Source: a virus
Strand: one strand, 5' to 3'
Length of the DNA: 37,369 bases
Virus record (IMG/VR): IMGVR_UViG_3300049491_001064
Location: 1 to 37,369 of that record
The notes below the pieces were generated by a model that was given only the letters and a program-made list of their open reading frames with translations, ran no database searches and was not told the DNA's origin. Position numbers and translations under genes: made by a program. Below are positions 3,275 through 30,598 of the stretch, piece by piece; within the stretch, counting starts at the first letter, position 1; the number at the start of each line of letters is the position of its first letter.

Positions 3275-3293
3275 GGATACTGGGCAGGATACT
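3275..3293 (+). repeat. Two GGATACT direct repeats, right arm of attP
   Basis: GGATACT at 3275-3281 and 3287-3293, again 12 bp apart and in the same orientation as the three left-arm copies. The last base touches the stop codon of the large virion gene. Together with 3043-3073 these bracket the tRNA core, at about 60-80 bp on this side and 100-130 bp on the other. Confidence 0.75.
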
Positions 3294-10241: not shown

Positions 10242-10829
10242 TTAGTAAATTGAGGACATCATAAGAGATTTTGCCCACGCATCCAGGCGCCCCGAGATGA
10301 AGAGCCACGCCGCCGCCCGCGCCGGAATCCCCACCGCGATCGCCGCCGCCGCCGTGAACGCCGAGGCATTCGGCAAGAGCACCAGCCCCTTCCGCTTGTT
10401 TAACATCATCTGCGACACCGCGTCCAGACGCGCCGCCAGCGGCTTGAAGTGTTCCCGCAAGCACGCGTCCACCCCGGTCCAGATCGGGTCCGGCGTCCCG
10501 CGGTGGAAGGAGTTTCCCCAGCCCGGCACGAACTCCCCGCGCTCGAGCATCTGCCACGCCTCCAGCTCCGGGCGCTCGCGCTCCAACAGCTCCACCGTCT
10601 GTTCCAGCGGCGCGTGCATCCCGCCCAGCGTCAGGAGCGCCCCGGCAATGGCGCCCGTAAAACTCCCGCTGCCCGCGTATGCGCTGCGGAGCATCACCGA
10701 GCTAATGTTGTCGCGCCGCGCGCTGTCCGCGTGCGCCTCGTGCACCCGGAAGAGCAGCACCGCCTCCGGCTCCGTGAGCGATTCTGTGCGCCACCAGGGC
10801 GTCCACGGGGTCAATGGCACTGCCGGCAT
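10242..10829 (-). CDS. Citrate-synthase-fold protein, degenerate active site
   Basis: A 195-aa protein from ATG 10829 (TGATG overlap with the sulfotransferase-like gene; the upstream in-frame ATG lies inside that gene). It follows the citrate synthase / citryl-CoA lyase pattern in order: VHEAHADSA (30-36, family DHELNAS), GAIAGALLTLGGMHAPLEQ (59-77, family …GPLHGGANE) with His72 kept, VPGWGNSFHRGTPDP (101-115, family PGFGHRVYKxxDPR), LLPNASAFTAAAA (151-162, family NVDFYSG) and WLFISGRLDAWAK (175-187, family FAIxRxxGWxAH) with Arg181. Two catalytic residues differ: the GFGH His is Asn106 and the NVDF Asp is Ser156. Full citrate synthases are about 400 aa, so only the C-terminal part of the fold remains. 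Probably a structural or binding protein rather than an enzyme. Confidence 0.7.
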   Translation of the reverse strand: MPAVPLTPWTPWWRTESLTEPEAVLLFRVHEAHADSARRDNISSVMLRSAYAGSGSFTGAIAGALLTLGGMHAPLEQTVELLERERPELEAWQMLERGEFVPGWGNSFHRGTPDPIWTGVDACLREHFKPLAARLDAVSQMMLNKRKGLVLLPNASAFTAAAAIAVGIPARAAAWLFISGRLDAWAKSLMMSSIY

Positions 10830-11440
10830 CACGCCACCACCTCCTGGGCCCGTTCCACCAGCCGCATCATCCGCGCCGGATCCACCGCCACCCGTTCCGG
10901 CATGATCCGCATCCGAAAATCCATCAACATCCGGTTCCGCACCTCCGGATATTCCGCCCCCGGCAACAGATGCTCCCACGCCTGGCGCAGGCCCGCTTCC
11001 GTGCTCAGCGCCTCCATCGGCACTGTGAGCACATCCGGCGCGTGATCAAGGAATTCCTGCTGCACCTGCTGCAAGCGGTCGAACACCGCCACCGTTTCCG
11101 GCCACGTTGGCGATCGCATCCCCTGGTAGGGCGTCCGTCCAAACGCCTGGAAGAAACACGCCCGCGCCTCTTCGAACGGCCGGCGCACGTGCAGCCAGCG
11201 GGCCCCGGGGAAGAGAGCCATCGTCCGCCGCCACACCATCAAGAGCCCCGAGTCGCTCGTGCCCACCGTGCGGGCCCCCGTGGCGGCCGCCAGCGCCTCG
11301 AAATGCGCCGGCAATTCCGCCACGTCCTCCAAATGTTTCAGCGCGTCATGCTCCACGAAGGCCTCGCCCCAGGTGAACAGATTCGCCAGCCACGCCGTGC
11401 GGCTCCGCGGCAACCCCGTGATGAAAATCGGTGCGTTCAT
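10829..11440 (-). CDS. Sulfotransferase-like protein
   Basis: A 203-aa protein from ATG 11440, which overlaps the upstream stop as ATGA. It opens with a beta strand and loop, IFITGLPRSRTAWLANLF, the 5'-phosphosulfate-binding loop of PAPS-dependent sulfotransferases (GLPRSRT at residues 9-15). A later segment, FPGARWLHVRRPFEEARACF, matches the region around the 3'-phosphate-binding Arg (family xIxxxRDPxxxxxS). It is shorter than typical bacterial sulfotransferases (250-300 aa). Known phage sulfotransferase-like proteins have unclear targets; here a surface sugar or a virion protein is possible. It is coupled by TGATG to the citrate-synthase-like gene. Confidence 0.75.
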   Translation of the reverse strand: MNAPIFITGLPRSRTAWLANLFTWGEAFVEHDALKHLEDVAELPAHFEALAAATGARTVGTSDSGLLMVWRRTMALFPGARWLHVRRPFEEARACFFQAFGRTPYQGMRSPTWPETVAVFDRLQQVQQEFLDHAPDVLTVPMEALSTEAGLRQAWEHLLPGAEYPEVRNRMLMDFRMRIMPERVAVDPARMMRLVERAQEVVA

Positions 11441-11814
11441 AGACTGGCCGGCATCCCCGGGAACCACACCGCCACCAGCTCCACCTTCCAGGAGGTCACC
11501 GTCATCGTCGAGATGCCGTCCGCCGACTTCGATTCCACGCCCAGGCTCGAGCCGTAAATGAATCCTGTCACCAGGCCCGGCTTCGCGCTGATGTAGAAAT
11601 GCGCCGTCGCCGAGCCATGCCCGTACAAGTGATGCACATCCCCGGGCAACCATCCGCTATCCGCCACCTGGCAAGTCAACCGCAGGAACATCAAGTCCGG
11701 CGGCCGCGACATCGCATGGTTGATCTTGAGCGTCTGATTGAATGCCGAGAGCAGTACCGGCTCCGAGCACAGGATTCCCCCCGTCTGTTCCAGTGCATAT
11801 AACGCGGTATTCAT
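11437..11814 (-). CDS. Hypothetical structural protein
   Basis: A 125-aa protein with a beta-rich middle and C-terminal half (TAHFYISAKPGLVTGFIYGSS) and no signal peptide or membrane helix. No family is recognised. The start lies 1 bp after the upstream stop and the end overlaps the sulfotransferase-like gene by ATGA, so it belongs to the tail module transcript. A small tail or fibre-base component is the most economical guess. Confidence 0.65.
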   Translation of the reverse strand: MNTALYALEQTGGILCSEPVLLSAFNQTLKINHAMSRPPDLMFLRLTCQVADSGWLPGDVHHLYGHGSATAHFYISAKPGLVTGFIYGSSLGVESKSADGISTMTVTSWKVELVAVWFPGMPASL

Positions 11815-11815
11815 A

Positions 11816-12232
11816 TCACAGGTCGGTCACCTCTGCCGTGATCGTGAAGGTGTCGCCTGCGGCCGCCGCCGAAAACCCAACGTGCAGTAGATAGGTGTTG
11901 CTCGGCAGTTTGATCCCCACCAGTTCCGGCACCGGAATGCTGATGCCCACCACAGTCGCGCTGGGCGTCACCGCCGCGCCCAGGTTGACCTCATGCACCA
12001 GGTAATAAGAGGTCCCGTCGAAGATATAGAACCGGCAGATGTTGTTGGCCGTGCTTGCCCCCGTCCCATTCTGCACCACGCGCACCCGCTGGATGATCGA
12101 GCCCGCCGCCACCCCCGCAATCACCGCCACCGTATTGTTGGCGCCCGCCAACGTCTTCACGCTATTGGCCGAGCCGCCGCTGTTCACGCCCGCCACCCGG
12201 GACGTCACGAAAAAGACTGGAGATGCACTCAT
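11816..12232 (-). CDS. Hypothetical beta-rich structural protein
   Basis: A 138-aa protein rich in Val, Ala, Ser, Thr and Gly with repeated beta-strand patterns (NTVAVIAGVAAGSIIQRVRV; TVVGISIPVPELVGIKL), without charged clusters or membrane segments. This composition is usual for jelly-roll-like decoration or fibre proteins, and the ending (TFTITAEVTDL) resembles small phage head/tail proteins. Located after the tail-tube-B-like gene. No specific family recognised. Confidence 0.65.
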   Translation of the reverse strand: MSASPVFFVTSRVAGVNSGGSANSVKTLAGANNTVAVIAGVAAGSIIQRVRVVQNGTGASTANNICRFYIFDGTSYYLVHEVNLGAAVTPSATVVGISIPVPELVGIKLPSNTYLLHVGFSAAAAGDTFTITAEVTDL

Positions 12233-12247
12233 AATTTTATTTCCGCG

Positions 12248-12520
12248 TTAGACAAAATGCGCCCACGTAAAAATCCTGTTGAACGTGTCATTGGCCGATA
12301 CCGGCAACGCCTCCGGCCCCCACTTCCCGGTCGCCACGCGATACACGAGGAACTGCCCCTCCGCCGGGGCCGAGGTCGAAAAATCCGTTAAATTCGTTGT
12401 GGCGCCCGTCACCGTCCACGCCCCGCCGGCATCCCCCTGGTTCAGCTTGCCGGCGTCCACCACGTCCGTGTCCTGCCACGTCGTCCCCGGCACAAACACC
12501 ACATTGAATTGCGCGGCCAT
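12248..12520 (-). CDS. Small structural protein after tail tube B
   Basis: A 90-aa protein whose ATG overlaps the stop of the tail-tube-B-like gene as TGATG. It contains a short beta-rich segment (GQFLVYRVATGKWGPEAL) like the attachment repeats seen in phage fibre and baseplate-linker proteins. Family not recognised; an adaptor between tube and fibre is one possibility. Confidence 0.65.
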   Translation of the reverse strand: MAAQFNVVFVPGTTWQDTDVVDAGKLNQGDAGGAWTVTGATTNLTDFSTSAPAEGQFLVYRVATGKWGPEALPVSANDTFNRIFTWAHFV

Positions 12521-14850
12521 CAGGTATCCCTCCTCAATGCGTTGCCCTCGCCCGTCCCCTCGTAGCCCAGCGCCAACACCCGCGCGCGGCCCTGCGTGCC
12601 CGAGATGCGCACGCGCGGCGAACGCCCGCGGCCGCTGATGCTCAGGTCGTGCCGCCGTTCCTGGTGCAGGCCCAGCTGCAGGCCATCCCCGAGGTTAAAT
12701 CCCCTTTCGGTATCCGGCCGCACCGTGCTCAGCGTCAGGCTGTAATCCTCCCGGAACGGCTCCGGAAAATCGTCATTCACATTCGTCGCATCCCACGCCG
12801 CCCGATCCCATGGCTTCGTGTACCGCGTACGACTGCGCGTCTCCCCCTGCACCAGCGAGCTCTCCTCATTGGCTCCATCCTGTACCAGCGCGATGTCATA
12901 GGAGGGGTTCCACGTCTCCAGCACGGCCACCAGCGTGCGCGCCAGCTTATCCCTCATCCGATCCGGCGTCGTCAGGCCTCGGGAGGTGTAGCTCCACTCA
13001 ATTTCCTGCCGGTCCACCTGCTCGATGAAACCCCACGAGCTCACGTTCACATCCGGCACCACGCCGTTCGTTGAATAAAAGCGCACGCCCGTGCTTGCTG
13101 TCCCCGTGACCATCGAGAGCGGCAGCGGCGCCGCCCGCGTGTTTGGCGCGCTCCATTGGATCGGGCTCGAGATCGCGTAACCCGCCACCGCATCACCAAA
13201 CAGGCTCCGCGCCGCCCCGTCGATATTGGTCGGCGTAGGGCTCGAGCGCCAGTGTGTCGCGTCATTGTTCGTCAGGGCAGTATCCACCTGCACCGAAAGG
13301 CCGCTGTTCACCAGCACAGAATAAAACGTCACCGGCGCTGAGAGCAGCGTCAGATCCATGTACGGCACTGGCCGCGCATCCTGGTAGCCGTGCTCATAGA
13401 GACACGTCCATCCATCCTCGCCGGCGAAACACAAGCGATCGATCCCCAGCCAGTTACTCAGGAAGAATTGTTTGGGCTCGATGCCGTCTGCCTGGTCATA
13501 TCCCTGCCACACACCGCCCCCCTCCACGTCTGAGAGCTGCGTGTCCAACACCAGCACCGCCGTGTTTACCCCCTTGTAAACCCGGCGCAGGCTGATGCCG
13601 TTGGTGATATTGGGGTTAAAACCGGTCACCGTTACAAACGTCGCCTGCGCCACGAAATCAATCGTGAACCCCGGCATCGGGCTGGATCCAGTCGTTACCG
13701 GCACCTGCGCCGTCCCATTCGTCAGATATCGCGTGTCCGTCCCGAACACCAGCCGATACGTCGCCCCGGGCACCGTAACATATTTGATCGGCGGATCTGA
13801 GATACGCGTGGCCGATTCCGGGTCCAACCGTTCCGCGTCATCGAAAGGCACCGCGAAATACACCTTGTTATCCCAGAACCCCGCGCAAATCTTGCTGCGA
13901 AACCGGCCATTCACCCGCTTGAGCAATCCATCGATGTTCTGTCCCGGCATCGGCCGCGTCGCCCCCTGTCCTGTCTGCACCTCATTGAACATCGTGATCG
14001 TGAGCGAAGCCGGCCCATCCTGGCTCCACCACATCAGGTCCGTGCCGATATCCACCACGCTCCGGGCCGCCACACACCCGTAACGGCGCGTCACCCGGAT
14101 CGGGATCGTGTCCGCCAGTGTCCCCACCACATTCACCAGCCGCCAGATCGAGCGCTCCTTCAGCGCCACGATGGAGGTCTCGTTGAACAGCGCGATCGCC
14201 ACCAGCGTATCCGGGATCCCGTCGGACACCCGGTACTGGTTGGCCACCGCGTAGGCCGTATGATCCAGCGCGTCGCTGGCCCACAGCTCATCCTGCCCCG
14301 TCAGGATCCAGAGTCGCAAGCCCACTGCCAGCGCCTGGCGCCCGCGCGGGATCCTCGAGAGCCCCAGGCCGGGCGTCGGATCCGGCACCACTGTGAACCC
14401 CAGGTCGATGCTGGACATCTGCAGCGGGTCCGCATTGTCTCCCCTCATTAGGATCACCGTGTCATCCAACTGCTCGAACGAGCAGTCCTCCGTCACCGTC
14501 ACGCCGGCGGGCAACGGGAGCGCCTGCGGAAAATTATTCGCCAGCGAGGCGTAGACCTGGCCGTCGGCGGCGATGAGATTCCAAATCCTGTCGTCCGCAT
14601 CCAGGAAGCGTCCCACCCCGTAAATCGTCTCATACTTCCCGAGCCCCAGAGAGGTGGTCTTGTTCAACCACGTCAAATGTGCCGTCCCCAGGCGTGGCTC
14701 CGGCACCCCCTGGCGAAAGCGCATGTTGACGGCCGCCGATCCGAAGCCCGGCGGAATCTGCGCGTGATGTTCGCGCACGTGCACGCCCACCACCCGCTCC
14801 TGTCCGTCGACCAGCGGCGCATTCCGTCCAGATGTTTGGACCCCATTCAT
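12520..14850 (-). CDS. Tail tubular protein B-like (gp12-like)
   Basis: A 776-aa protein from ATG 14850, overlapping the lipoprotein gene stop as ATGA; the longer frame to 15105 lies inside that gene. It opens with MNGVQTSGRNAPLVDGQE, has a DNMRF-type segment (VNMRFRQGVPEPRLG) and a body of beta-propeller-like repeats (IWNLIAADGQVYASL; RLWILTGQDELWASD; DLMWWSQDGPASLTI), as expected for the T7 gp12 nozzle family; T7 gp12 is 794 aa. The role would be the distal tail tube. It lies downstream of the tube-A-like gene but separated by ~6 kb of exported and lysis-like genes, unlike T7 where the two are adjacent. Confidence 0.7.
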   Translation of the reverse strand: MNGVQTSGRNAPLVDGQERVVGVHVREHHAQIPPGFGSAAVNMRFRQGVPEPRLGTAHLTWLNKTTSLGLGKYETIYGVGRFLDADDRIWNLIAADGQVYASLANNFPQALPLPAGVTVTEDCSFEQLDDTVILMRGDNADPLQMSSIDLGFTVVPDPTPGLGLSRIPRGRQALAVGLRLWILTGQDELWASDALDHTAYAVANQYRVSDGIPDTLVAIALFNETSIVALKERSIWRLVNVVGTLADTIPIRVTRRYGCVAARSVVDIGTDLMWWSQDGPASLTITMFNEVQTGQGATRPMPGQNIDGLLKRVNGRFRSKICAGFWDNKVYFAVPFDDAERLDPESATRISDPPIKYVTVPGATYRLVFGTDTRYLTNGTAQVPVTTGSSPMPGFTIDFVAQATFVTVTGFNPNITNGISLRRVYKGVNTAVLVLDTQLSDVEGGGVWQGYDQADGIEPKQFFLSNWLGIDRLCFAGEDGWTCLYEHGYQDARPVPYMDLTLLSAPVTFYSVLVNSGLSVQVDTALTNNDATHWRSSPTPTNIDGAARSLFGDAVAGYAISSPIQWSAPNTRAAPLPLSMVTGTASTGVRFYSTNGVVPDVNVSSWGFIEQVDRQEIEWSYTSRGLTTPDRMRDKLARTLVAVLETWNPSYDIALVQDGANEESSLVQGETRSRTRYTKPWDRAAWDATNVNDDFPEPFREDYSLTLSTVRPDTERGFNLGDGLQLGLHQERRHDLSISGRGRSPRVRISGTQGRARVLALGYEGTGEGNALRRDT

Positions 14851-15185
14851 TTGATTTTGCCGAGGATCGAATCCAAGGCCCGCAACGCCTCCACCACGTT
14901 CGTGCCCCCGCCGGATTCCTCGAGGCCCTGCGTCCCCGCCGACATCGTTTTGCCAATGGAGGCCCGCTGTCGGTCCAGCGAGCTGGTGGCCGGCCACACC
15001 ACAAACGACGTCATCTTGAGCGTCCGTTCCGTCACCACCCCGTTGGTGCCGATTGTCCGTTCCGTGAGCACCGGGCGATTGACGGCGCACCCCGTGAGCA
15101 GGCACAGGGTGAACGCCGCCAGAGCTGCGGCAAAGGGGTGCGCCGCGGACTTATGTTCCAGTGGGGTGGGCTTGGGGGGATTCAT
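14847..15185 (-). CDS. Lipoprotein, possible outer spanin
   Basis: A 112-aa protein with a signal peptide ending in a lipobox (LCLLTGC, Cys at residue 34) and a mature part of about 79 residues. It follows the holin-like gene by 7 bp and overlaps the tail-tube-B gene by ATGA. Outer-membrane lipoprotein plus a nearby single-TM coiled-coil protein (15728-15952) is the make-up of a two-component spanin that fuses inner and outer membranes at lysis. The mature part is not strongly Pro-rich, so a generic phage lipoprotein is possible. Confidence 0.65.
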   Translation of the reverse strand: MNPPKPTPLEHKSAAHPFAAALAAFTLCLLTGCAVNRPVLTERTIGTNGVVTERTLKMTSFVVWPATSSLDRQRASIGKTMSAGTQGLEESGGGTNVVEALRALDSILGKIK

Positions 15186-15192
15186 AAAAAAG

Positions 15193-15573
15193 TCACTGAT
15201 TGTTTTTCCTGTCGATCGAATCTGCGGGAGGATCCTTGGCGATGAATGCCGTGTCCCCGTTCACGCCCACCTTGGCCAAAAATCTCTTGAGTGCCGCAGC
15301 GTAGATCAGAAACGCGACCCCACCGCAAATCAGGCCCACGAACACATTCTTCCAGAGCCAGAGGCGAAACGGCAGGTTGTCGGAAAGAGGGTCGGCAATC
15401 ATTGCATTGGCAGCTCCGCCGATGACGATCGAGCACAGCCAGATGCCGTCATTGGGGAACCTGTGCCACTTGGCCAGCGCGGCACAGATCACCACGCACA
15501 GCACAGTCACCAGCGCGTAGCCCGGCAGGCCGTTGAGCTTCCCGAGCCATTCAAAGATGGATTCGATGTTCAT
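15193..15573 (-). CDS. Holin-like membrane protein
   Basis: A 126-aa protein with three hydrophobic segments, about residues 18-35 (YALVTVLCVVICAALA), 44-60 (IWLCSIVIGGAANAMI) and 75-92 (VFVGLICGGVAFLIYAA), and a hydrophilic charged C-terminal tail. Size, topology and position between a coiled-coil membrane protein and a lipoprotein fit a holin that permeabilises the inner membrane. No gene for a recognisable endolysin is next to it. Confidence 0.65.
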   Translation of the reverse strand: MNIESIFEWLGKLNGLPGYALVTVLCVVICAALAKWHRFPNDGIWLCSIVIGGAANAMIADPLSDNLPFRLWLWKNVFVGLICGGVAFLIYAAALKRFLAKVGVNGDTAFIAKDPPADSIDRKNNQ

Positions 15574-15727
15574 ACTTTCGCAATTTGGAGGGGCCGGGCA
15601 GGAGGAATTCCTTTAAACGTGTGCGCCATTTCACCGGGTCGCATCAACCACTGAAGCCTTTCAATGGGTTGAATGTTAAATGGAAATGACAGAACATTTG
15701 CGACTCCCGGCCGGCCAACTCCGCCTC
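15574..15727 (-). other. Intergenic region upstream of holin-like gene
   Basis: About 150 bp between the coiled-coil membrane gene and the holin-like gene, unusual spacing in an otherwise overlapping operon. Close to the holin-like start the leftward strand reads CCTCCAAATTGCGAAAGT with no strong ribosome site. I see no convincing ORF, hairpin or promoter; a leader controlling lysis timing is possible but unsupported. Confidence 0.35.
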
Positions 15728-15952
15728 CTAAAGCTTTGGCGGGTGAAGATTCATCTCCGCGATATGTTTCCAGATGGCCGCCCGATCCTCGTTGCAGGCG
15801 ATGAGCTGATCCCGGCATTTGCGCATCTCGTTGCGCTGGTCCAGCAGCTCCGCCGTGCGCGCCTTGGCCTCGTTGTTCATGCGCCGGTACATGTCGGCGA
15901 CAGCGCCGCACAAGGCGAGTATTGCGGCAAGCAAGGCATGTTCGAAAGCCAT
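15728..15952 (-). CDS. Single-TM coiled-coil protein, possible inner spanin
   Basis: A 74-aa protein with an N-terminal hydrophobic helix (HALLAAILALCGAVA, residues about 5-19) followed by a charged helical segment (NNEAKARTAELLDQRNEMRK) likely to form a coiled coil. This is the layout of Rz-like inner spanins, though shorter than Rz (~150 aa). It sits just upstream of the holin-like and lipoprotein genes. An overlapping frame (15570-15959) is Arg/His-rich and looks like a shadow. Confidence 0.6.
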   Translation of the reverse strand: MAFEHALLAAILALCGAVADMYRRMNNEAKARTAELLDQRNEMRKCRDQLIACNEDRAAIWKHIAEMNLHPPKL

Positions 15953-15972
15953 GGTTCATTTTCAGTTTTGAT

Positions 15973-16458
15973 TCAATCCGCCGGCACGGCCGTCCACCGC
16001 TTCACCTCATCAAACGGAAACACCGGCAACGTCTGCGACTCGAGCCGTTCCGAGAGCCGCCACCGCCGTCCCCTCATCCACCACCGGAACTTTTGCTCTT
16101 CCTCCGTCAACGCATACCGCGCTTCCGCCACGACAAACGCCCCGAACACGCACGGCACATTTTCGGAGCGATAGAAGCCCAGCGGGAAAATCTCGATGTT
16201 AAACGACCCCACCACATACTGGTCCAGATTCCAGCACCCGTAGCTGGCCCCCGTGAAGGCGGTGGTAAAATCCACATCCGTCCCCACCTGGATATTGCAG
16301 ATATTGAAAGGCAGCTGCTCCGCGGCCACCAGCGCCCAGGCCGGCGTCCCGTTCGTATCTCGCGGATAGACCGCGATCAACTGGATGTCCTGCGCCGGCG
16401 CCGGCGCCAACAGCAGAAAGCAGAAAGCAGAAAGCAGAAGTGCCAGTTTCGTTTTCAT
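15973..16458 (-). CDS. Exported hypothetical protein
   Basis: A 161-aa protein from ATG 16458 with a textbook Sec signal peptide: Lys residues, hydrophobic core LALLLSAFCFLLLAP and A-P-A followed by Gln at about residue 23. The mature part has beta-strand patterns and a charged C-terminal region (EEEQKFRWWMRGRRWRLSER). The central part of the signal core (residues 7-16) is encoded by a 7-nt tandem repeat at 16411-16440. No family is recognised. The in-frame extension to 16845 overlaps the previous gene and is not credible. Confidence 0.7.
   Translation of the reverse strand: MKTKLALLLSAFCFLLLAPAPAQDIQLIAVYPRDTNGTPAWALVAAEQLPFNICNIQVGTDVDFTTAFTGASYGCWNLDQYVVGSFNIEIFPLGFYRSENVPCVFGAFVVAEARYALTEEEQKFRWWMRGRRWRLSERLESQTLPVFPFDEVKRWTAVPAD
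16411..16440 (+). repeat. Four tandem GCAGAAA units inside a signal peptide
   Basis: GCAGAAA is repeated about four times with a 7-bp period. Read leftward it encodes LLLSAFCFLL, the core of the signal peptide of the 15973-16458 product. It belongs with the other 7- and 8-nt-period repeats of this window in type, but not in sequence. Confidence 0.8.
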
Positions 16459-16466
16459 GATCGTAA

Positions 16467-16919
16467 TCACGGCGTCATTGTCATCCGCGCACGGTAGAAA
16501 CGCTGCTCGCTGGTCGCCTCCAGCGGCACCGTCACCGTCTGCAGCATGGCCCATGGCCCTCCCAGGTCCGGCGCCGCCTGCAAGGAGGCCGACAGATTGA
16601 GGATGCGCAGCCCCGTCGGCGCAAATGCCCGGTTCGTCCAGCACACCTCGTTCGATGGCAGGCTCTCGATGCCGGCCGGTTCGTAAGCTGTCACCGCCCA
16701 GAACGATCGTCCCGGCGGCAGATTGCTCCACACCGCGCTCGTGTTCGTTCGCCCGGAAATGTTGTTGCTCGAGGTGTAGAAGCCCGGGGCCGGCCCGTGG
16801 TAGAGAATGTATCCCGCCACGTTCGTCTCCGCGTTGGCCTGCCACGCCAGCGTCACTTGCTGGGCGCAGGCCTGCGCCGCGAGCAAGAACGCCAACATCA
16901 ATTGCCGCGTCATCGTCAT
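16467..16919 (-). CDS. Exported fibronectin type III-like protein
   Basis: A 150-aa protein with a signal peptide (LMLAFLLAAQACA, cleavage before QQ) followed by one Fn3 domain: VTLAWQANAETNVAGYILYH, then SNLPPGRSFWAVTAY and SLPSNEV, the usual strand and ligand-edge pattern. The C-terminal half (LQAAPDLGGPWAML … RFYRARM) strongly resembles the small domain that follows Fn3 modules in verrucomicrobial secreted proteins. It overlaps the beta-helix gene stop by ATGA. The role is probably adhesion or a spacer; host origin is likely. Confidence 0.75.
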   Translation of the reverse strand: MTMTRQLMLAFLLAAQACAQQVTLAWQANAETNVAGYILYHGPAPGFYTSSNNISGRTNTSAVWSNLPPGRSFWAVTAYEPAGIESLPSNEVCWTNRAFAPTGLRILNLSASLQAAPDLGGPWAMLQTVTVPLEATSEQRFYRARMTMTP

Positions 16920-18493
16920 GGAAATTTCGCCGTGATTACCCAGTTCGTCCCGCCGATGCCTCCCACCGAAAGTGTGATGGCTCCTCCGTTGGCTGAAATG
17001 TTGGTTGTCGTCGGCCCCCCGTTAATCTTCTGGTTTCCCACCGTCTCGATCCAGATGTTCGTCCCCGCGGCCGTCGAGGTCCGGTCATACACCCGCACCT
17101 CATACTTGCCGGCCAGGTATCCATTTGTGCCGAACCAGGTCGTGTCGATCAATTTGTTGGTGCGCCCGGCCGTGTGCGTCGAATTGGCGTTTGTCACCCC
17201 CACCACGTGGTCGCTGGGCTGATTCGTGATGAGCGAATTGATGAGGGGCGGCTGCACTTCATTGATATATCCGCCCGTGATGAGCACCCGCGCCGAGTTG
17301 CTATTCCACACCGCAAGACTCACGGCGTTGTTCGTCGTGAAATGCGTGATGCGCACCCCATTCAATAGCATCACCGCCGGTGCATTCGTGCTGGCCGGTA
17401 TGTAAATCCCCGCGTTGTGCGTCTGCCCGTTGCTCGCCGTTATGCTGCCCCCATCCCAGAACAGATTCCCGCTCAGCCACGAGACGCCGTGAATCTGTTC
17501 AAACGAGTTAGTCTTGATGCTGAAAATGTGAACGTTCTTGAACCAAGCCGATTTGGCGATCCCGCGATTATCCCAGTTCGCCACGCCATCGAAATTGTCG
17601 GAGATGAAGGCATCCTCGAGATGAAAGTCGCGCCACGTATCGAGCCCCAGCCCGTCAGCCTGCCCGTCGAACGACATCCCGCGGACTAACACATTCGTCG
17701 CCTCGTTCGCGGCTGCGCCGCTGCTGAATTGCTGACCTTCTCCGACGACGATCTTGCCGTGGAACGTAAAGTTCGCTGCCACCGTATCGGAACAGAGGAA
17801 CAGTGAGTCCTCTTGCCCCTGTGCCGTCCCAATCACCGTTACACCAAAACCCGCCCCGATGAGCGCGCCGCCATTCGTCAAAATCATCGTGCCCCCATCC
17901 ACCTCCGGATACATCCCGGGCTGCACGATCACCCGCTCCCCGCGGCGCAGCACGAGCAGCGCTGCCTTCACTGTCTTCCACGGCAGATCGATTCGTCCCC
18001 TCACCGCGTTCGTATCGTTGCCGATCCCGCAATCCACGTACAAATTCGTTGTCAACCCCGGCAATGCCACCGCCGCCGGAAAACTCACACTCGTAAAACA
18101 GTTGGTGATCGGTCCGTATGTGGTCGTCCCCAGCGGTCCAGCGCCCCCCACGATATCATCCCACGTCTGCGTCCCGCCAATCACCGGCACACCAAACGAG
18201 TCATACAGCACCCCACTTACGGAGTTGCTGATGATCCACGCCCCATAGCCAGAGTCGAAGTACAGCACATTCACCCCATTGGTGAATCGGGTCGATCCAT
18301 TCCAATTATACGTCCCATTGGCCGCTGCCGTTCCGAACCCCTGCGCCAGCATGATGTTCGTGTTAAGGAAGGATGAAGTGATGCACTGGCTCGTCACAGC
18401 GCCGAGGGCCGAGGGGGCCGTGCCCACCGCCGCCCGCAAAGGCGCCAGGGCCAAAAGCAGCATCGCGCCCGGGATCAAGGCGTGGGCACGCAT
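16916..18493 (-). CDS. Exported parallel beta-helix protein (tailspike-like)
   Basis: A 525-aa protein from ATG 18493, overlapping the SGNH gene by 19 bp; the longer in-frame start at 18637 lies inside that gene. A signal peptide (GAMLLLALAPLRAA) precedes a domain starting NLYVDCGIGNDTNAVRGRI … GERVIVQPGMY, the entry motif of pectate-lyase-like right-handed beta-helices, followed by many short Asn/Gly/Ile turns (about residues 200-430). Such folds bind or cleave polysaccharides and are typical of phage tailspikes. The signal peptide is unexpected for a virion protein, which should stay in the cytoplasm to assemble. Confidence 0.75.
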   Translation of the reverse strand: MRAHALIPGAMLLLALAPLRAAVGTAPSALGAVTSQCITSSFLNTNIMLAQGFGTAAANGTYNWNGSTRFTNGVNVLYFDSGYGAWIISNSVSGVLYDSFGVPVIGGTQTWDDIVGGAGPLGTTTYGPITNCFTSVSFPAAVALPGLTTNLYVDCGIGNDTNAVRGRIDLPWKTVKAALLVLRRGERVIVQPGMYPEVDGGTMILTNGGALIGAGFGVTVIGTAQGQEDSLFLCSDTVAANFTFHGKIVVGEGQQFSSGAAANEATNVLVRGMSFDGQADGLGLDTWRDFHLEDAFISDNFDGVANWDNRGIAKSAWFKNVHIFSIKTNSFEQIHGVSWLSGNLFWDGGSITASNGQTHNAGIYIPASTNAPAVMLLNGVRITHFTTNNAVSLAVWNSNSARVLITGGYINEVQPPLINSLITNQPSDHVVGVTNANSTHTAGRTNKLIDTTWFGTNGYLAGKYEVRVYDRTSTAAGTNIWIETVGNQKINGGPTTTNISANGGAITLSVGGIGGTNWVITAKFP

Positions 18494-20361
18494 ACGGTTG
18501 TGTTGTTCGTGTTCCAACATTTCCAGAGCATGAGCCCGTTGGAATTCCAATAGGCAAAAGAACCCAGCGCCAGCACTGGCGGCGTCGTCACCGTGTTCGT
18601 CGGCCAATACATCACCCCGTTGGTATTCACGTTCCACAGGTTGGGCCGATTGGTTGTGCCCAGCCGCATGATGTCATTCACCACGTTATCCGCCGCCACG
18701 TGGAAGAAGGCCTGCGGCGAATTGGTCCCGAGTCCCGCCTTGCCGTCCTCCTGCACGCGCAGCAGCGAGATGGCATTGGTTTGATTCGCTGCATCCCTTT
18801 CGATCGAAAAGAAATTGGAGGTCTGATTATTGTCCGCGTCGATGATGATGTGGGCTCCGCCTCCAGAATTGATCGTGAGGCGCCCCGAATCCCGTTCATA
18901 CGTGATGGTCGCCGTGTTCGCGTTCAACGCGTCGAACAGGATTTGATGCGCCAGGGATGAAGACGAATTGAGCCGCGTGAACCCCAGCGACGTCGAAAAG
19001 TTCGTTCGCCCTAGGAGCAGGTTGCCAAACAGGTCCAGCATGTAAGTGCCCGTCAACCGCGGGCCAACCGAAAGAAAGCCGTCCTTGCTCACCGCCACGA
19101 TGTTGCTGCCGCCGTAATCCGTGATCTCCATCAGATTCGACACCTGTTGGAAGCCGGCATAAACCCGGAACGGCACCCGATTGCCCAGCGCCGTCCCCAC
19201 CAACAAATTCTGTTTCCGCGAGAACCCGCCATCATGCCAGATCAAATCCGCCAGGTAAGACACCCCCATGCCGTTCAAGTGAATGCAATCATTGGTCAAC
19301 ACCCATTGGCGCCGCACCAGATCATTCGTCGTCCCGAAAATCTGCGTGTCAAAATAGCTGTAACCCACTGCCTGCACGGAATTCTGCACGAACGTATTGC
19401 CCAGGTCATACCTCGATGAATTATCCGTCACGTTGTTCACGCCAATGAACGTCCCATCTGTATTGCTCGGCGCCATCCCCGCCATCGCCAACGTCGTCAG
19501 AAAGACCGGCAGGGCGTTCGTGAGCAACGATGGAGCGTCCAACGCGTGCCACAGGAATTCTGTCAACCCCAGGCTGGCGAATACCGGCACCGTGATGTTC
19601 GTGGCCACATTGGTCACATCCGCCAGCGTCCCGCCAAAGCTCCACATCTGCGCGGGACTGATGCCCCCCTTGTTACTCGCCCACATGCCACCGCCGATCA
19701 CCACGTTTGTGCCCGTCACATTCACCACCTTCAGCTTCCACTCGCCCAGGTTCGTCGCGAAGTTGACGACCACACCGGTGGGGCTGGCCGTCAGCGCCGA
19801 AAGAGTTGCTGTCACGTCACTGAACGCCCCGCCGTTGGTCGCCACCTGGACCTTGTAAGTGCCGCCGTTGGTCGTGTGAGCCATTGCGATCCGGAACGTG
19901 TCGGCCACCATGAAGCGTCCCGCAGAATCGAAAGTCACATCCGCGCTGGCACCGCCCACCCCCATGGTAAAATGCGCCGCGAACCAGTTCGTGTCCGGCA
20001 GTGGGATCGTCGTGAATCCCGAGTGCGTATACGTCAAGGGCGCAAACAGCGTATTCGTCAACACCGTCATGTAACCGCCATTGAACCCCAGCGCCCGTCC
20101 GAAATCCGAGCTCCATGCCTCCACCACATCATCCCCGAGCGAATCGCCAAATCCGCCGATGCGCCACGGCAGCACGTTGGTGTAGAGAATCGAAAACCGA
20201 TTCTTGTAAGGCGTCGCGTTCAGCGCCGCCGTCACCACGTTTGTGGCGATTACGGATGCAGCGCCAGTCGTCACCGATGGCACCGTTCCCGCCGCGGCGA
20301 AAGCCCGCAGCGCCGGGCAGGCGACGAATGCCACCAACAATAATGTCCGAAGAAGATTCAA
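18475..20361 (-). CDS. Exported SGNH/GDSL esterase with fibre-like C-terminus
   Basis: A 628-aa protein. It probably starts at TTG 20361, which overlaps the preceding stop as TTGA. A signal peptide (LLRTLLLVAFVACPALRAFA) is followed by block I of SGNH hydrolases, GGFGDSLGDD (GDSL at 72-75), and block V, NDCIHLNG, with Asp358 and His361. The N-terminal ~370 residues are therefore likely a hydrolase, perhaps removing O-acetyl groups from a surface sugar. From about 480 on the protein carries the fibre-type motif GLGTNSPQAFFHVAADN seen before chaperone domains in tail fibres, but no peptidase S74 dyad is visible. Very Asn/Thr-rich. Confidence 0.75.
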   Translation of the reverse strand: MNLLRTLLLVAFVACPALRAFAAAGTVPSVTTGAASVIATNVVTAALNATPYKNRFSILYTNVLPWRIGGFGDSLGDDVVEAWSSDFGRALGFNGGYMTVLTNTLFAPLTYTHSGFTTIPLPDTNWFAAHFTMGVGGASADVTFDSAGRFMVADTFRIAMAHTTNGGTYKVQVATNGGAFSDVTATLSALTASPTGVVVNFATNLGEWKLKVVNVTGTNVVIGGGMWASNKGGISPAQMWSFGGTLADVTNVATNITVPVFASLGLTEFLWHALDAPSLLTNALPVFLTTLAMAGMAPSNTDGTFIGVNNVTDNSSRYDLGNTFVQNSVQAVGYSYFDTQIFGTTNDLVRRQWVLTNDCIHLNGMGVSYLADLIWHDGGFSRKQNLLVGTALGNRVPFRVYAGFQQVSNLMEITDYGGSNIVAVSKDGFLSVGPRLTGTYMLDLFGNLLLGRTNFSTSLGFTRLNSSSSLAHQILFDALNANTATITYERDSGRLTINSGGGAHIIIDADNNQTSNFFSIERDAANQTNAISLLRVQEDGKAGLGTNSPQAFFHVAADNVVNDIMRLGTTNRPNLWNVNTNGVMYWPTNTVTTPPVLALGSFAYWNSNGLMLWKCWNTNNTTVCVPTP

Positions 20362-20804
20362 TTGGGTTTCCGGTATGTCACGCTTACCTGCAGGATCGTG
20401 GTCGCATTGGAGAGCCCTCGATCCGTCGTGCTATTGGCCACGAGCAATCCGTTGTTGAATTGGATGCCCGCCAGTCCGAAATCGTAATAACCGGTCGACC
20501 CTGCCGGCACTTTGATGGGCGCGACCGTCGGCACCGCGTTCGTGGCCGGGAATCCGTTTGTTCCCTGGTTGAATGCCATCAGCCAGATGTCCCCCGCACT
20601 CGAGTTCTGCGCCACGATCGAGAACACCTTGAGCGCATTGGTGCTCACGATGCACACATTGGTGGGCGTCACCGTCGAGAAATACCGGTCCGATCCCGTC
20701 TCCTTGTTCTGTCCAAATGCCTGGAAGCATGGAAGGCAGAGGAGGAGAGGACACAGAACGAGGGCCCCCAAATTCGTGTTAATTCGTGAAATGCGTGTCT
20801 TCAT
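20358..20804 (-). CDS. Exported hypothetical protein
   Basis: A 148-aa protein with a signal peptide (Arg-rich start, core LVLCPLLLCLPCFQ, cleavage about A-F-G before Gln). The mature ~115 residues are beta-rich (NVCIVSTNALKVFSIVAQN; ILQVSVTY) and resemble a small jelly-roll structural protein. The DNA for residues 6-11 contains two AATTCGTG copies (20771-20788). Located 6 bp after the tail-tube-A gene. Family unknown. Confidence 0.65.
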   Translation of the reverse strand: MKTRISRINTNLGALVLCPLLLCLPCFQAFGQNKETGSDRYFSTVTPTNVCIVSTNALKVFSIVAQNSSAGDIWLMAFNQGTNGFPATNAVPTVAPIKVPAGSTGYYDFGLAGIQFNNGLLVANSTTDRGLSNATTILQVSVTYRKPN

Positions 20805-20810
20805 AATTGT

Positions 20811-21830
20811 TCAGATTTTCACCGGCAGTCTCCGGCTCTGCCGTTGCCTGCGGTTTACCAGCACAAAAGCGTCACGCGCGTAGCCATTGGCCCGGGCCTC
20901 CTCCACCGCTGCCGATTCCAGTTCCCCCGAACCCCGCAGCATCTCCGAGTAGGCGCCCTGCGCCACGGCATCCCGCAGCACCCAGGGGAACTCCACTCGC
21001 TCCCAGTAAGCGGCCACCGTCACCGCTTGATTGATGTTCCCCGCCTGGAGCGACTTGAAAAAATCCCCCTCCGTGCTGTCATACACTTGGTCATCCACCC
21101 CGTAGGTCGAGGTCGCGTCCCACGCGTCGCCCGTCCACGTCGGCGGCCGCGTCAGGAACTCCAGCCACACCGAGCCCTGGCCGCCCGTCACGTAAATTTT
21201 GTCCGCGAGGTCAAACTCCAGGTCACAAGCCGCCCCGAAATACACCTGCGGATCCCGGTCCCACACAGCGCGCACCGTCCCGATCTCCGTCTGACCAGTC
21301 TGTTCGTAATCGATTGAGCGCCGGAATGCCGTCAGGATGCCGAACTTCGTGGAATCGAGCGTGGCCCCGCCCGAGTGCGCCGTGTGGCATTGGTAAAAGC
21401 GATCGTCATCCGGGTTGCGCACAATCGTCCCCACGTCGAAAGCGCCGGCGGCATAATCGTTGCCGGTATAGCTGGATTGCGATTCCGCCCAATACGCCGA
21501 ATTTTCCACCCCGCTGTCCGTGAACGGAATATTGCCCGTATTGCCGGCGCGCAAGCTTTGGGCGTACTTCTGGGTCCGCACGTGGTACACCTCCACTGCG
21601 GCCGTGGCCGTCGGCGCCCCATACGTGGTGCCCACTGCCCACGCCGGCCGAAACGTGCGCTCCTCCGTCAGTTTCCATTCCGGCCACCAGAATTCCTCCC
21701 AGAGCTGTTGGGCCCAGGTATTGATGAACACCCGCGCCGTGCTTTCGTCGTCCGCCGAAAAAGCCCCCTGCGAGCCGAGCCACCGGGCCTCGACCTTCGC
21801 CAGCAAATCGCTATAGGAGATGGCGCGCAT
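20811..21830 (-). CDS. Tail tubular protein A-like, with carbohydrate-binding-like inserts
   Basis: A 339-aa protein whose N-terminal ~55 residues (LLAKVEARWLGSQG … INTWAQQLWEEFWW) and C-terminal ~80 (VLRDAVAQGAYSEMLRGSGE) match the helical frame of T7 gp11-type head-tail connectors; T7 gp11 is 196 aa. The extra length is made of Trp/Tyr-rich modules such as GNTGNIPFTDSGVENSAYWAE and DAWDATSTYGVDDQVYDST … QAGNINQAVTVAAYWERV, which resemble CBM5/12 carbohydrate-binding modules. It would seal portal to tail tube, with inserts displayed outward. Position before tube-B-like protein supports the call. Confidence 0.7.
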   Translation of the reverse strand: MRAISYSDLLAKVEARWLGSQGAFSADDESTARVFINTWAQQLWEEFWWPEWKLTEERTFRPAWAVGTTYGAPTATAAVEVYHVRTQKYAQSLRAGNTGNIPFTDSGVENSAYWAESQSSYTGNDYAAGAFDVGTIVRNPDDDRFYQCHTAHSGGATLDSTKFGILTAFRRSIDYEQTGQTEIGTVRAVWDRDPQVYFGAACDLEFDLADKIYVTGGQGSVWLEFLTRPPTWTGDAWDATSTYGVDDQVYDSTEGDFFKSLQAGNINQAVTVAAYWERVEFPWVLRDAVAQGAYSEMLRGSGELESAAVEEARANGYARDAFVLVNRRQRQSRRLPVKI

Positions 21831-21838
21831 GTTCGGTC

Positions 21839-21862
21839 ATCCGTCTTCCGTCCTCCGTCCTT
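21839..21862. repeat. 7-nt-period repeat (family A, TCCGTCC type)
   Basis: CCGTCTTCCGTCCTCCGTCC lies between the exported-protein gene and the tail-tube-A gene. The 7-bp unit (TCCGTCC/TCCGTCT) recurs at 23271, 26599, 26665, 31941, 35465 and the right edge. Confidence 0.7.
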
Positions 21863-21870
21863 GGCGCGCC

Positions 21871-22431
21871 CTACGGCTGGGAAGCCGTGATGGTGAGATT
21901 GGAAATCCCCAGCCCGTTCGTCATCCCCTCGAACCGAAACGCGTAGCCATTGCCCAGAACCGTCCCCGGAATGTTCGTGAACACGCTGTAGCCGTTTGTC
22001 GTGCCCGATTCATTCAGGTTCATCAGCCCCAGGTTGGGGAACACCTGGAATCCGTCGCCGAAGTTCGTGCCATCCGGCGAGATCGTGAAACGAAACAACG
22101 CGTTGGAGCCCGCCGTGCCGTGCGTGTTGTATTTCACGAGCAATCCGAGCCCCTGGCTGCCGGCGCGCAGCACCACCCCCGTGGTATTCACCGCCGAGCC
22201 CAGGCCGCCGAAGATGCCACTCGTGTTATTGTTCGTCACACCGGCCGCGATAAGGCCCGTGCCGCAGAACACCGGCACTGTCACCGGCTTCCGTGGCGCG
22301 TCCGCCCCACTGCGCACATTCACCTGCGCCTGTGTGGGCAACGCCAGGAGCGCCAGCGCCAGGACCAGCAGCATTTCAGATTTCAGCTTTCTGCTCTCTG
22401 CTTTGGGGAGGAGTGTCATTTCCGTTTTCAT
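21871..22431 (-). CDS. Exported hypothetical protein upstream of tail tube A
   Basis: A 186-aa protein from ATG 22431, an ATGA overlap with the previous stop; the extension to 22668 is in another gene. It has a basic N-region, core MLLVLALALLALP and cleavage T-Q-A before Gln. The mature part is a beta-rich ~150-aa domain (GLGLLVKYNTHGTAGSNALFR; NGYAFRFEGMTNGLGISNLT) with the Asn/Gly/Thr composition of the other exported proteins. The DNA for residues 9-20 is an 8-nt-type repeat (22372-22406). No family recognised. Confidence 0.65.
   Translation of the reverse strand: MKTEMTLLPKAESRKLKSEMLLVLALALLALPTQAQVNVRSGADAPRKPVTVPVFCGTGLIAAGVTNNNTSGIFGGLGSAVNTTGVVLRAGSQGLGLLVKYNTHGTAGSNALFRFTISPDGTNFGDGFQVFPNLGLMNLNESGTTNGYSVFTNIPGTVLGNGYAFRFEGMTNGLGISNLTITASQP
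22372..22406. repeat. 8/7-nt-period repeat (family B with CTTTCTG units) in signal-peptide region
   Basis: ATTTCAGATTTCAGCTTTCT followed by two CTG-CTTT units. On the leftward strand it encodes the charged N-region (KAESRKLKSE) just before the hydrophobic core of the exported protein at 21871-22431. Related TTTCAGC units are found at 23406, 23958, 25063 and 33973. Confidence 0.65.
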
Positions 22432-23394: not shown

Positions 23395-23405
23395 GGTCCG
23401 TCCCG

Positions 23406-23441
23406 ATTTCAGCCTTTCAGCTTTTCAGGATTTCAGCTTTT
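23406..23441. repeat. 8-nt-period repeat (family B, TTTCAGC type)
   Basis: Four or five TTTCAG units with an 8-bp period (ATTTCAGCCTTTCAGCTTTT …) fill the gap between the 23440-23943 gene stop and the next gene start. Confidence 0.75.
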
Positions 23442-23943
23442 ACCCGTGCATCGTGGTCAGATAATCCGCCACGCGCATCACGTTGGTGTAGATCCACAGC
23501 TCGCCAAACGTGATCGTGTTCAGGTTTCCCGCCGTGGAGGTCAGCGTGAGCAACAGGCTCTTGCCCGTGGCGATCGTCGAATACGGCGCCAGGCCCGAAG
23601 TCGGGCTGGTGATCGGGTAACCGCGGTCCTGCTGCAGGTCGCCGTTCGTGCCCGCGATGAGTTGCGTGGTGGCGCTCGTCACCCCCACGTCCGCCTTGAG
23701 GTTGGCCAGGGTGGTGGCCGCGGCATCCTCGGCGCCGTCCGTGAAGCGTTTGGCCACCAGGCCCTGCGCCAACGGATACGGGAGGATATCGCCGATGTTG
23801 AGCGCCAGCAGCGTGATCGTCTGCGTGGTGGCCGCCGCCGTAAAATCGCTCACGCCGGCTGCGCCGCGGGTCGTGCCCACGATGAACAAGTCGGAGAACA
23901 ACCCCGCGAACGGATCCTTCGGGTGAACTGGATATCGTTTCAT
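23440..23943 (-). CDS. Probable head decoration or minor capsid protein
   Basis: A 167-aa protein directly downstream of the major capsid gene. It is Ala/Thr/Leu-rich with beta-strand patterns (QTITLLALNIGDILPYPLAQG; KSLLLTLTSTAGNLNTITFG) and few charges, like capsid-cementing proteins. The start at 23943 is preceded by a family B repeat. No specific family recognised; the role is inferred from position. Confidence 0.65.
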   Translation of the reverse strand: MKRYPVHPKDPFAGLFSDLFIVGTTRGAAGVSDFTAAATTQTITLLALNIGDILPYPLAQGLVAKRFTDGAEDAAATTLANLKADVGVTSATTQLIAGTNGDLQQDRGYPITSPTSGLAPYSTIATGKSLLLTLTSTAGNLNTITFGELWIYTNVMRVADYLTTMHG

Positions 23944-23957
23944 ATGTTTGGATTTTG

Positions 23958-23993
23958 AATTTCAGTGTTTCAGCGTTTCAGCATTTCAGCATT
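23958..23993. repeat. 8-nt-period repeat (family B)
   Basis: TTTCAGTG-TTTCAGCG-TTTCAGCA-TTTCAGCA, four units on an exact 8-bp period, in the gap between the major capsid stop and the next gene start. Similar blocks flank the capsid gene on both sides (25063). Confidence 0.8.
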
Positions 23994-24001
23994 GGGGCGT
24001 T

Positions 24002-25036
24002 TTACGACTGAACGATTTTCCCGTTCCCCCGGGGAGAGCGGCAGATGTTGGCCCATTGGCACGAGAGCACGCCGCCCTCACCGCTGGCGTTCTTCCACTC
24101 CTCTGATTGCTGCAGGTCCTCCAGCATGTCCAGATACCAGAGCTCCAGGAAGAGCACCAGGCCCGCGTTCGGGTCCCCCACGCCCGAGCTGCTGATCTGG
24201 TTGAACTCCGTCGCCATCACGTCCAAACGTCCGAAGGACGTCTCGTACAGATTCACCATCATCCGGATCGTCATCTCGTCCGCTCCCTGGCGCACCAGGT
24301 AATTCTGTTGTGCGGCCGGGTTGGCGATCACGCTCGATGACACGATCCGGCTGAAATGATCGATCGTGCTCACCACGTTATTGCCGCCGATGAGTTGGAA
24401 CGAGCGCTTGCCGCCGTGGATCGCTTTCAGGCTCTTCAACTGGTCATAGAGCTGATCCTCGCTGAACAGGATGCCGGTCGAAGCCCCGTGCACCATCACG
24501 TCATTGGCCCCCACGCGGAAATCCGTGCTCACGGTCGGCGAGAGCGTCACGGTGGTCGGGTCCAGCCACTTGAACGCCCCGCGGGTCTGCATCGTGGCCG
24601 CGCCGCCGCCGCCGTCCTGCGTTTCCAGATTCGAACAATTCACCGCCTCGATGTCCCGTTTGACCTCCAGCTCCGTGCGCGCCGCGTCCCGTTCCATGGC
24701 GTTGGGCACTCCGGCGATGCCCCCGCGCTGGCTGATGAGCTGTTGCGTGCGCGTCACCGCCCATTCGTCCATGCTGCGGTGCAGGTACACGCCGAATCGC
24801 CCGCGTTTGACTTCCTTGTTGCCGCCTTTTCCGGTAGGCGCATCCTCGCGTGCCCCCGTGGTGCGCGGCGCCCGCATGCGATCCGAGAGCGTCTCGATGA
24901 GAGTCGAGGCCGCCTCCTCCCGTTTGTCCACCAGCGAGGTGAATGGAGTTTCCTGCGGTTCCAGCAGGGTGATGTCATTCCGGAGATCCTCGCGTTGTCC
25001 GCCTGTCGTCCCCGGATTTGCTGTCGTTGCATCCAT
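24002..25036 (-). CDS. Major capsid protein (SU10 / DUF5309-type)
   Basis: A 344-aa protein with the family opening REDLRNDITLLEPQETPFTS, a central region with alternating strands (TVTLSPTVSTDFRVGAND) and a C-terminal segment describing a P-domain-like fold (GRLDVMATEFNQIS … LVLFLELWYLDML). This opening, in which an essential tract of acidic residues precedes a conserved TPF, is seen in HK97-fold capsid proteins of the SU10/DUF5309 group. It follows the scaffold gene, as expected, and is bordered on both sides by repeats. Length is normal for the group. Confidence 0.85.
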   Translation of the reverse strand: MDATTANPGTTGGQREDLRNDITLLEPQETPFTSLVDKREEAASTLIETLSDRMRAPRTTGAREDAPTGKGGNKEVKRGRFGVYLHRSMDEWAVTRTQQLISQRGGIAGVPNAMERDAARTELEVKRDIEAVNCSNLETQDGGGGAATMQTRGAFKWLDPTTVTLSPTVSTDFRVGANDVMVHGASTGILFSEDQLYDQLKSLKAIHGGKRSFQLIGGNNVVSTIDHFSRIVSSSVIANPAAQQNYLVRQGADEMTIRMMVNLYETSFGRLDVMATEFNQISSSGVGDPNAGLVLFLELWYLDMLEDLQQSEEWKNASGEGGVLSCQWANICRSPRGNGKIVQS

Positions 25037-26449: not shown

Positions 26450-26655
26450 GCAATTAACGGCTGCAAGAGCCGAAGGAATCATGTCTTGCCGACAAGTGGC
26501 GTGTTTGAATCACGAGTGCGCACTTACGGCAGCAGACGGGGAGCGGTCAACGAGGAGCGATCCTCCCGGGCCGAATGATCCTCCCGGGCCGGAAAAAAGG
26601 ACAGAAGACGGAGGACAGAAGACCGACGACAGCCTCAGCCAGCCGCCCTCAGCCC
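26450..26655. other. Non-coding gap before scaffold gene, repeat-filled
   Basis: The largest non-coding gap in the leftward operon (206 bp, or 173 if the scaffold starts at 26482). It holds two copies of GATCCTCCCGGGCCG 18 bp apart (about 26559-26592) and most of a repeat-based inverted structure. No ORF or good promoter is seen. It could separate expression of portal-side and capsid-side genes. Confidence 0.5.
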
Positions 26656-30568: not shown

Positions 30569-30598
30569 ATTTCCCGCTCAAAGAATTCCGTGAGCTGT

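Follow-up and report, generated by a model that had tools for sequence, protein, structure and literature searches.

Predicted signal peptides on tail-region proteins of a short-tailed-type phage clade and a possible assembly step outside the cytoplasm

Introduction

Assembly of tailed phages is understood to take place wholly in the cytoplasm, contact with the outside coming only at lysis. The DNA considered here, hereafter the window, is one entire IMG/VR virus record (IMGVR_UViG_3300049491_001064; 37,369 nucleotides), whose minus strand carries a cassette of the short-tailed-phage type in the order TerL-portal-scaffold-major capsid protein (MCP)-adaptor-nozzle. Around the adaptor and nozzle genes lies a block (14847-22431) in which several proteins of spike, fiber or other surface type appear to begin with Sec signal peptides (SPs). 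Why would a phage address such proteins to the outside of the cell? A first-pass annotation made from the sequence alone offered two answers, namely that the phage exports a set of surface proteins during infection or lysogeny, or that parts of its tail are assembled outside the cytoplasm. Genes of the window are referred to below by their lower coordinate (Table 1) and related loci by our own numbers (L015, L086 and so on).

Results and discussion

A cluster of exported-type N-termini

SPs were predicted with a home-made, rule-based scanner that requires a positive n-region, an uncharged h-region and an A-x-A-type cleavage site, calibrated on seven textbook Escherichia coli SPs and 85 E. coli genes. 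All seven known SPs were recovered, and among the 85 genes the scanner found five true positives (yaaX, yaaI, ybgS, modA and the lipoprotein ybhC), along with two false positives among soluble proteins (carB and bioD) and several membrane proteins. Exactly seven of the 37 minus-strand genes of the window are called, the integrase not being called, and they are the very seven that the first-pass annotation had singled out: six genes between 22431 and 15973 with predicted SPs of the Sec/signal peptidase I (SPase I) type, and gene 14847-15185, which has the lipobox LLTGC after a hydrophobic stretch, as expected of a lipoprotein processed by SPase II. SP or lipobox calls fall on 7 of the 10 genes of the block and on 0 of 28 genes elsewhere in the window (Fisher p ~1e-5). 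Two additional flags came from a later automatic gene call, one on a 77-residue plus-strand open reading frame (ORF) at 1068-1301 and one on an internal start within the holin-like gene, and left this picture unchanged. The block as first drawn keeps its seven exported-type genes but required corrected starts, since gene 15973 begins at 16458 and gene 16916 at about 18493, and gene 18475 uses a TTG codon; it also encloses two genes, 15728-15952 and 15193-15573, that are not SP genes.

If starts or gene calls were wrong, the SP codons would not be translated at all. One start is indeed a TTG, and short tandem repeats overlap several 5' ends; however, the genes abut within a few bases, gene 20358 has no alternative start between its SP and its domain, and the SP frames are open in 16 related loci, so that an annotation artifact is very improbable.

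Recurrence in the same slot of related phages

Relatives were found by alignment-based IMG/VR scans, with the portal as first query and the adaptor as second; scans of viral contigs with the MCP, 18475 or adaptor as single proteins gave no relatives, and alignment queries were required. In 16 related loci, some of them near-duplicates, SPs are present on spike, beta-helix, LamG, GH43-like, collagen-like, Fn3-like or SGNH-like proteins around the adaptor-nozzle interval. They lie within that interval or directly upstream of the adaptor in L086, L088, L089, L090/L092/L093, L094, L095 and L119-L125. By hand tally, an SP is found on 24 of the 29 slot genes of at least 200 residues across the clade, compared with 4 of the 111 genes that follow the MCP in marine outgroups, all four short and membrane-anchor-like; any p-value for this comparison is only indicative, the contigs not being independent. 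Forty of the 41 listed clade proteins score at least 11 in the scanner. SP-bearing proteins stand in the position of 21871-22431 in L088 (1722-2243) and L094 (9467-9967), with no sequence homology detected to the window protein. Lipoproteins likewise occupy the slot of 14847-15185 in L086 and L089, and no homologue of 15973-16458 was found.

The SP scanner gave zero calls among 21 curated core sequences (MCP, portal, TerL, adaptor and nozzle). A scan of automatic gene calls flagged a single internal start in the portal ORF of the L088 contig, which we regard as spurious. That core proteins are free of SPs while spikes and other predicted surface proteins bear them suggests that the latter leave the cytoplasm of the infected cell and have their action, or their entry into the particle, on its outer side.

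Signal peptides as extensions of otherwise SP-less families

Two conserved families of the clade exist both with and without an SP. The protein encoded directly after the adaptor, which we call the hub, is SP-bearing in the window and L120-L124 but SP-less in L088, L089, L095 and L119; for the product of the gene following the MCP, L089 and L120-L124 have the SP-bearing form and ten others, among them the window, the SP-less form. The SP-bearing members are recovered by hidden Markov models (HMMs) made only from SP-less ones, at E 3e-11 to 9e-19 for the hub and at E 8e-6 to 3e-15 for the post-MCP protein; the window hub is matched by two SP-less-only hub HMMs at E 6.9e-6 and E 2.8e-12. When the homology is extrapolated to model position 1, it starts about 0-3 residues from the predicted cleavage site in most SP-bearing members. 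Judged by these alignments, the SP of both families turned out to be an added N-terminal extension. In a tree of MCP plus adaptor, the pair formed by the window and L086 and the clade of L089 and L120-L125 each have 100% support and are separate; the hub SPs thus lie in two separated lineages, and either were gained at least two times or have been lost repeatedly. SP-less homologues, which the first-pass annotation had named as evidence against its proposal, do exist for some of these proteins, yet the SP is an apparent addition to them and is found in both hub lineages.

Glutamine occupies position +1 in 12 of 40 predicted sites against a background of 3%, a tenfold enrichment (p ~1e-9), although the scorer ignores this position except to exclude proline. 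The Q-rule, glutamine at +1 of most SPase I substrates, is described as specific to Bacteroidetes (PMC5837995); in the present clade glutamine is enriched but confined to a minority of sites.

These features bear on whether the N-terminal segments are cleaved SPs at all. As uncleaved membrane anchors or inert add-ons, they would hold the proteins at the inner membrane, where particles may assemble; some segments score only moderately (L120 post-MCP protein, 11.1; window 16916, 11.7), and the N-terminus of the L089 beta-helix protein and the L090 LamG protein do not pass as SPs. The A-x-A sites, the strong +1 glutamine enrichment, the predicted cleavage near the native N-terminus and mature parts that mostly have no further transmembrane (TM) segments all speak against anchoring, which we consider unlikely. 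Removal by a prohead protease, as maturation propeptides, has a precedent suggested for capsid proteins of some Porphyromonas phages (PMC10367356), but the segments here are on spikes and enzymes rather than on the capsid protein, their h-regions and A-x-A sites are Sec-like, and the window has no homologue of Peptidase_S78, the only protease family searched; a propeptide origin is therefore highly improbable.

SPs are thus present, clustered and positionally recurrent across the clade, with most sites at or near the N-terminus of SP-less relatives. Export of surface proteins, the first of the two answers offered at the outset, is strongly supported at the level of sequence, because related phages have SPs in the same slot and the predicted cleavage sites lie mostly near the native start of SP-less orthologues, and we consider it very probable that the SP-bearing proteins are exported. 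The degrees of confidence given throughout are judgements and were not computed.

Virion components or agents at the cell envelope

What would the exported proteins do? An AlphaFold2 (AF2) model of the mature window hub (pLDDT 76) has BFVD matches with E <0.001 mainly to uncharacterized tailed-phage proteins, the best being from Ralstonia phage RSK1 (E 1.4e-7, TM-score 0.76), and a fold search of the PDB gives weak matches, mostly to virus-type jelly rolls, the HFTV1 turret among them; sequence searches of the PDB were empty. The model supports, without proving, a structural role for the hub.

Of the spike-type proteins, 18475 has an SP-bearing orthologue in L124 (8863-10785, E 5e-20) that also follows the hub directly, and their C-terminal halves hardly align. 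The SGNH esterase of the first-pass annotation retains its GDS and DxxH motifs, which are present in both orthologues, but has no match in Pfam, and its AF2 model (pLDDT 35) is uninformative. The beta-helix-like 16916 has a homologue in the same slot of L089 (E 6e-5). The Fn3-like 16467 has an SP-bearing orthologue in L086 (18885-19316; 33% identity, E 1.7e-6); its designation as an Fn3 protein could not be upheld, there being no Fn3 match in Pfam and a likeness by eye only. The spikes of L090/L092/L093 are ~95% identical at the two ends (SP and start; last 120 residues), and their middle, several hundred residues long, is essentially unrelated; a swapped central domain between conserved ends is the signature of a receptor-binding protein. 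A collagen-like repeat protein (L088 3819) matches tail-fiber PHROGs (E 2e-9). Export driven by disulfide formation was considered and rejected: cysteines are not enriched in the mature SP proteins (0.71 per 100 residues against 0.88), which mostly have an odd number of them.

Binding to finished particles in vitro is known for spikes and decoration proteins such as P22 tailspike, T4 Hoc/Soc and phage L Dec. Docking of the exported proteins on the particle is favored because SPs are found on conserved genes of structural slots and their predicted removal would give N-termini close to the native ones, and because spikes and decoration proteins of other phages can bind finished particles in this way; from the sequences, export followed by docking has a little under an even chance. 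The second of the two initial answers, assembly of tail parts outside the cytoplasm, gains weight from predicted SPs on the jelly-roll hub, the post-MCP protein and a domain-swapping spike.

The exported proteins could instead act on the envelope of the infected or lysogenized cell, where spikes, esterase- or lyase-like enzymes and LamG and Fn3-like binders would strip or mask receptors or surface polysaccharide, block superinfection and free progeny from debris. Enzymatic and carbohydrate-binding domains are found in SP proteins of the clade, namely Laminin_G_3 (L088, E 2.4e-26; L123, E 3.2e-12), Beta_helix (L120, E 4.5e-8; L123, E 1.7e-7) and GH43 (L095, E 1.9e-7), to which the SGNH motifs may be added. 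The SP genes adjoin lysis genes, with lipoproteins and probable outer-membrane beta-barrels in the same block (L088 7519-8130, L089 15007-15543 and L123 17649-18146; the L123 protein, one of the SP carriers, matches OMP_b-brl at E 3.5e-4, and those of L088 and L089 end in Phe). The integrase indicates a temperate phage, and for the unexplained SP genes of Porphyromonas phages effects on the host outer membrane were proposed (PMC10367356). Envelope action leaves unexplained the SPs on the hub and post-MCP families, both virion-like in appearance and without SPs in sister phages, and the slot equivalents in outgroups are fiber-like and SP-less. We regard it as the main rival, a real possibility though somewhat less probable than docking. 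Docking and host-surface action may both be true, for different proteins of the block.

Several observations weigh against export followed by docking. The barrels of L088, L089 and L123 and the lipoproteins are envelope proteins and not virion parts. Many hub and post-MCP orthologues are SP-less, so export is not required for that role. In the post-MCP proteins of L089 and L123 and the hubs of L122 and L124, the best site lies at least 5 residues upstream of the extrapolated start. The LamG proteins of L096 and L086 have no SP although in the slot, and L122 has no gene between hub and nozzle and hence no spike genes there. The conserved, SP-less tail-tip trio of the window (11437-12520) could be the true receptor-binding complex, and is possibly one made in the cytoplasm. 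'Dec', 'hub' and 'spike' are names given from position, fold or motif.

A hypothetical model and its relation to known systems

In the model that we propose for docking, capsid, portal, adaptor and nozzle would be built in the cytoplasm, while spikes, fibers and small surface proteins with Sec SPs would be exported through the host Sec translocon and cleaved by host SPase I. The mature proteins would stay in the periplasm or at the surface of the cell until the adjacent lysis genes open it, and would then dock on particles, a two-compartment assembly in which export, cleavage and docking are steps that we infer. We tentatively suggest, as possible rather than probable, a tailed-phage clade with split assembly, in which the core is cytoplasmic, decoration-type, hub and spike proteins are Sec-exported and added outside, and orthologues of cytoplasmic virion proteins gained SPs on more than one occasion. 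Were the export of surface proteins systematic, one step of virion assembly would occur outside the cytoplasm, fibers could act on the cell surface ahead of lysis, and the common practice of taking a signal peptide as a sign of a host gene or moron would be mistaken here. An exported module of spikes and enzymes beside lysis genes would be an uncharacterized phage strategy even without any of its proteins entering virions. The question is sharpened to which members of the SP-bearing and SP-less orthologue pairs, hub and post-MCP, end up in particles.

Morons of the lambda Lom/Bor type are add-on genes for phage-encoded outer-membrane barrels and lipoproteins, and the barrels of L088, L089 and L123 resemble them. 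In contrast to morons, the genes with SPs here include occupants of the adaptor-nozzle interval and orthologues of conserved structural-slot genes. P22- and T7-like phages and the marine-type Phage C75C1 (OQ984151) share the TerL-portal-scaffold-MCP-adaptor-nozzle order, with fiber-like genes between adaptor and nozzle. C75C1 is the nearest match in the phage collection (portal 27% identity, E 3e-65), but its slot proteins have no SPs. A precedent is found in Porphyromonas gingivalis phages of the proposed Nixviridae, which have genes with Sec SPs, several with glutamine at +1, read as using host secretion; there the SPs are on genes of unknown function, spanins and capsid proteins thought to be cut by the prohead protease (PMC10367356), whereas here they form a positional module of spikes and conserved virion-type genes that recurs across the clade. 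No report of exported spikes or decoration proteins was found in searches of an open-access library.

The host is unproven because host-directed scans gave no assignment: genome contigs scanned with the portal had no relative, a repeat-pattern scan matched one Bryobacterales contig, and no homologue of the adaptor was found in 297 Acidobacteriota genomes, a negative that carries no information. INPHARED had no detectable relatives of the adaptor or the Fn3-like protein. Repeat and domain style prompt a guess at Verrucomicrobiota. Verrucophage P8625 (PMC4642752), a described lytic phage of that suspected phylum, differs in being a siphovirus with 0 predicted SPs.

Gene content of the window and minor observations

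Table 1. Features of the window. A slash marks the predicted cleavage site; lengths are in amino acids (aa).
Coordinates	Strand	Feature	N-terminus	Matches and remarks
30599-32575	minus	TerL		
27428-29647	minus	Portal		
25109-26482	minus	Scaffold-like		
24002-25036	minus	MCP	No SP	phrog_1328, E 6.6e-19
23440-23943	minus	Post-MCP ('Dec'-slot) protein	No SP in window	Same family SP-bearing in six related loci
21871-22431	minus	186-aa SP protein directly upstream of adaptor	SP, first 35 aa (22431-22327), ...LALLALPTQA/QVN	
20811-21830	minus	Adaptor (connector), conserved anchor of block	No SP	49-50% identity to L086; relatives in other loci
20358-20804	minus	Jelly-roll 'hub'	SP, first 31 aa (20804-20712), ...LPCFQAFG/QNK	
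18475-20361	minus	SGNH-like spike/fiber, 628 aa, TTG start	SP, 22 aa, MNLLRTLLLVAFVACPALRAFA/AAG (AFA/AAG)	
16916-18493	minus	Beta-helix-like protein	SP, about 24 aa, MRAHALIPGAMLLLALAPLRAAVG/TAP	
16467-16919	minus	Fn3-like 150-aa protein	SP, MTMTRQLMLAFLLAAQACA/QQV (ACA/QQV)	
15973-16458	minus	161-aa SP protein	SP, MKTKLALLLSAFCFLLLAPAPA/QDI (APA/QDI)	
15728-15952	minus	74-aa single-TM, inner-membrane-spanin-like protein	Not an SP gene	Weak match L123 17210-17422 (E 0.005), same position
15193-15573	minus	Holin-like two-TM protein	Not an SP gene	Weak: phrog_1129, E 0.005; phrog_1299, E 0.008
14847-15185	minus	Lipoprotein, candidate outer-membrane spanin	Lipobox, ...LCLLTG/CAVN	phrog_456 Rz-like spanin, E 0.094
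12520-14850	minus	Nozzle / head closure Hc3-like	No SP	phrog_578, E 6e-4; homologues in L015, L043 and clade contigs
12248-12520, 11816-12232, 11437-11814	minus	Tail-tip trio	No SP	Orthologues, same order, in L122 and L124 (E down to 1.4e-54)
3293-8269	minus	1658-aa protein at ejection-protein place		
1739-3142	plus	Integrase		

The nozzle gene of one relative, L124 (12912-17234), is apparently split by a 1.9-kb ORF (13202-15079) encoding a 625-aa fiber-like protein with IGGG repeats and a hydrophobic N-terminus.

Short tandem repeats are found near gene starts in several of these phages. In L102-L104 (contig G004, IMGVR_UViG_3300020118_000364), arrays of ~32 nucleotides built from 4-5 copies of a 7-nucleotide unit (AAATCAT/ATTTATG) are present at about 17 sites (for example 6518-6551, 12685-12714 and 30563-30594), about 1-40 nucleotides upstream of the start codon of about 15 genes. 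The pattern AAATCATAAATCATAAATCAT, with at most 2 mismatches, has 13 matches in one 20-kb piece of G004 and 0 in shuffles; the arrays might be a leader or a translation or transcription signal. Arrays of other units, of 7-9 nucleotides, stand directly before genes 23440, 22861 and 20811 of the window (23959-23993, 23405-23436 and 21836-21861) and directly before genes of L088 (2250-2294 and 3398-3425). Capture of SPs together with host repeats was considered as their origin and is weakened, since short tandem arrays also precede many non-SP genes. Within the TerL gene of the window, two stretches of coding sequence look like repeat 'text' (e.g. RRVVSGQWSVVSSSEVSGSRGAED) and are different in L001, a close relative, as though the terminase gene had been invaded by repeats.

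Two further genes lie apart from the block. A small protein (10829-11458) matches phrog_10855, a hydrolase (E 2.6e-11), and its GLPRSRTAWL resembles by eye a sulfotransferase P-loop. The replication region encodes a phrog_2045 protein (34460-35413, E 2.6e-75), which we take to be of the Gp37/Gp68 type.

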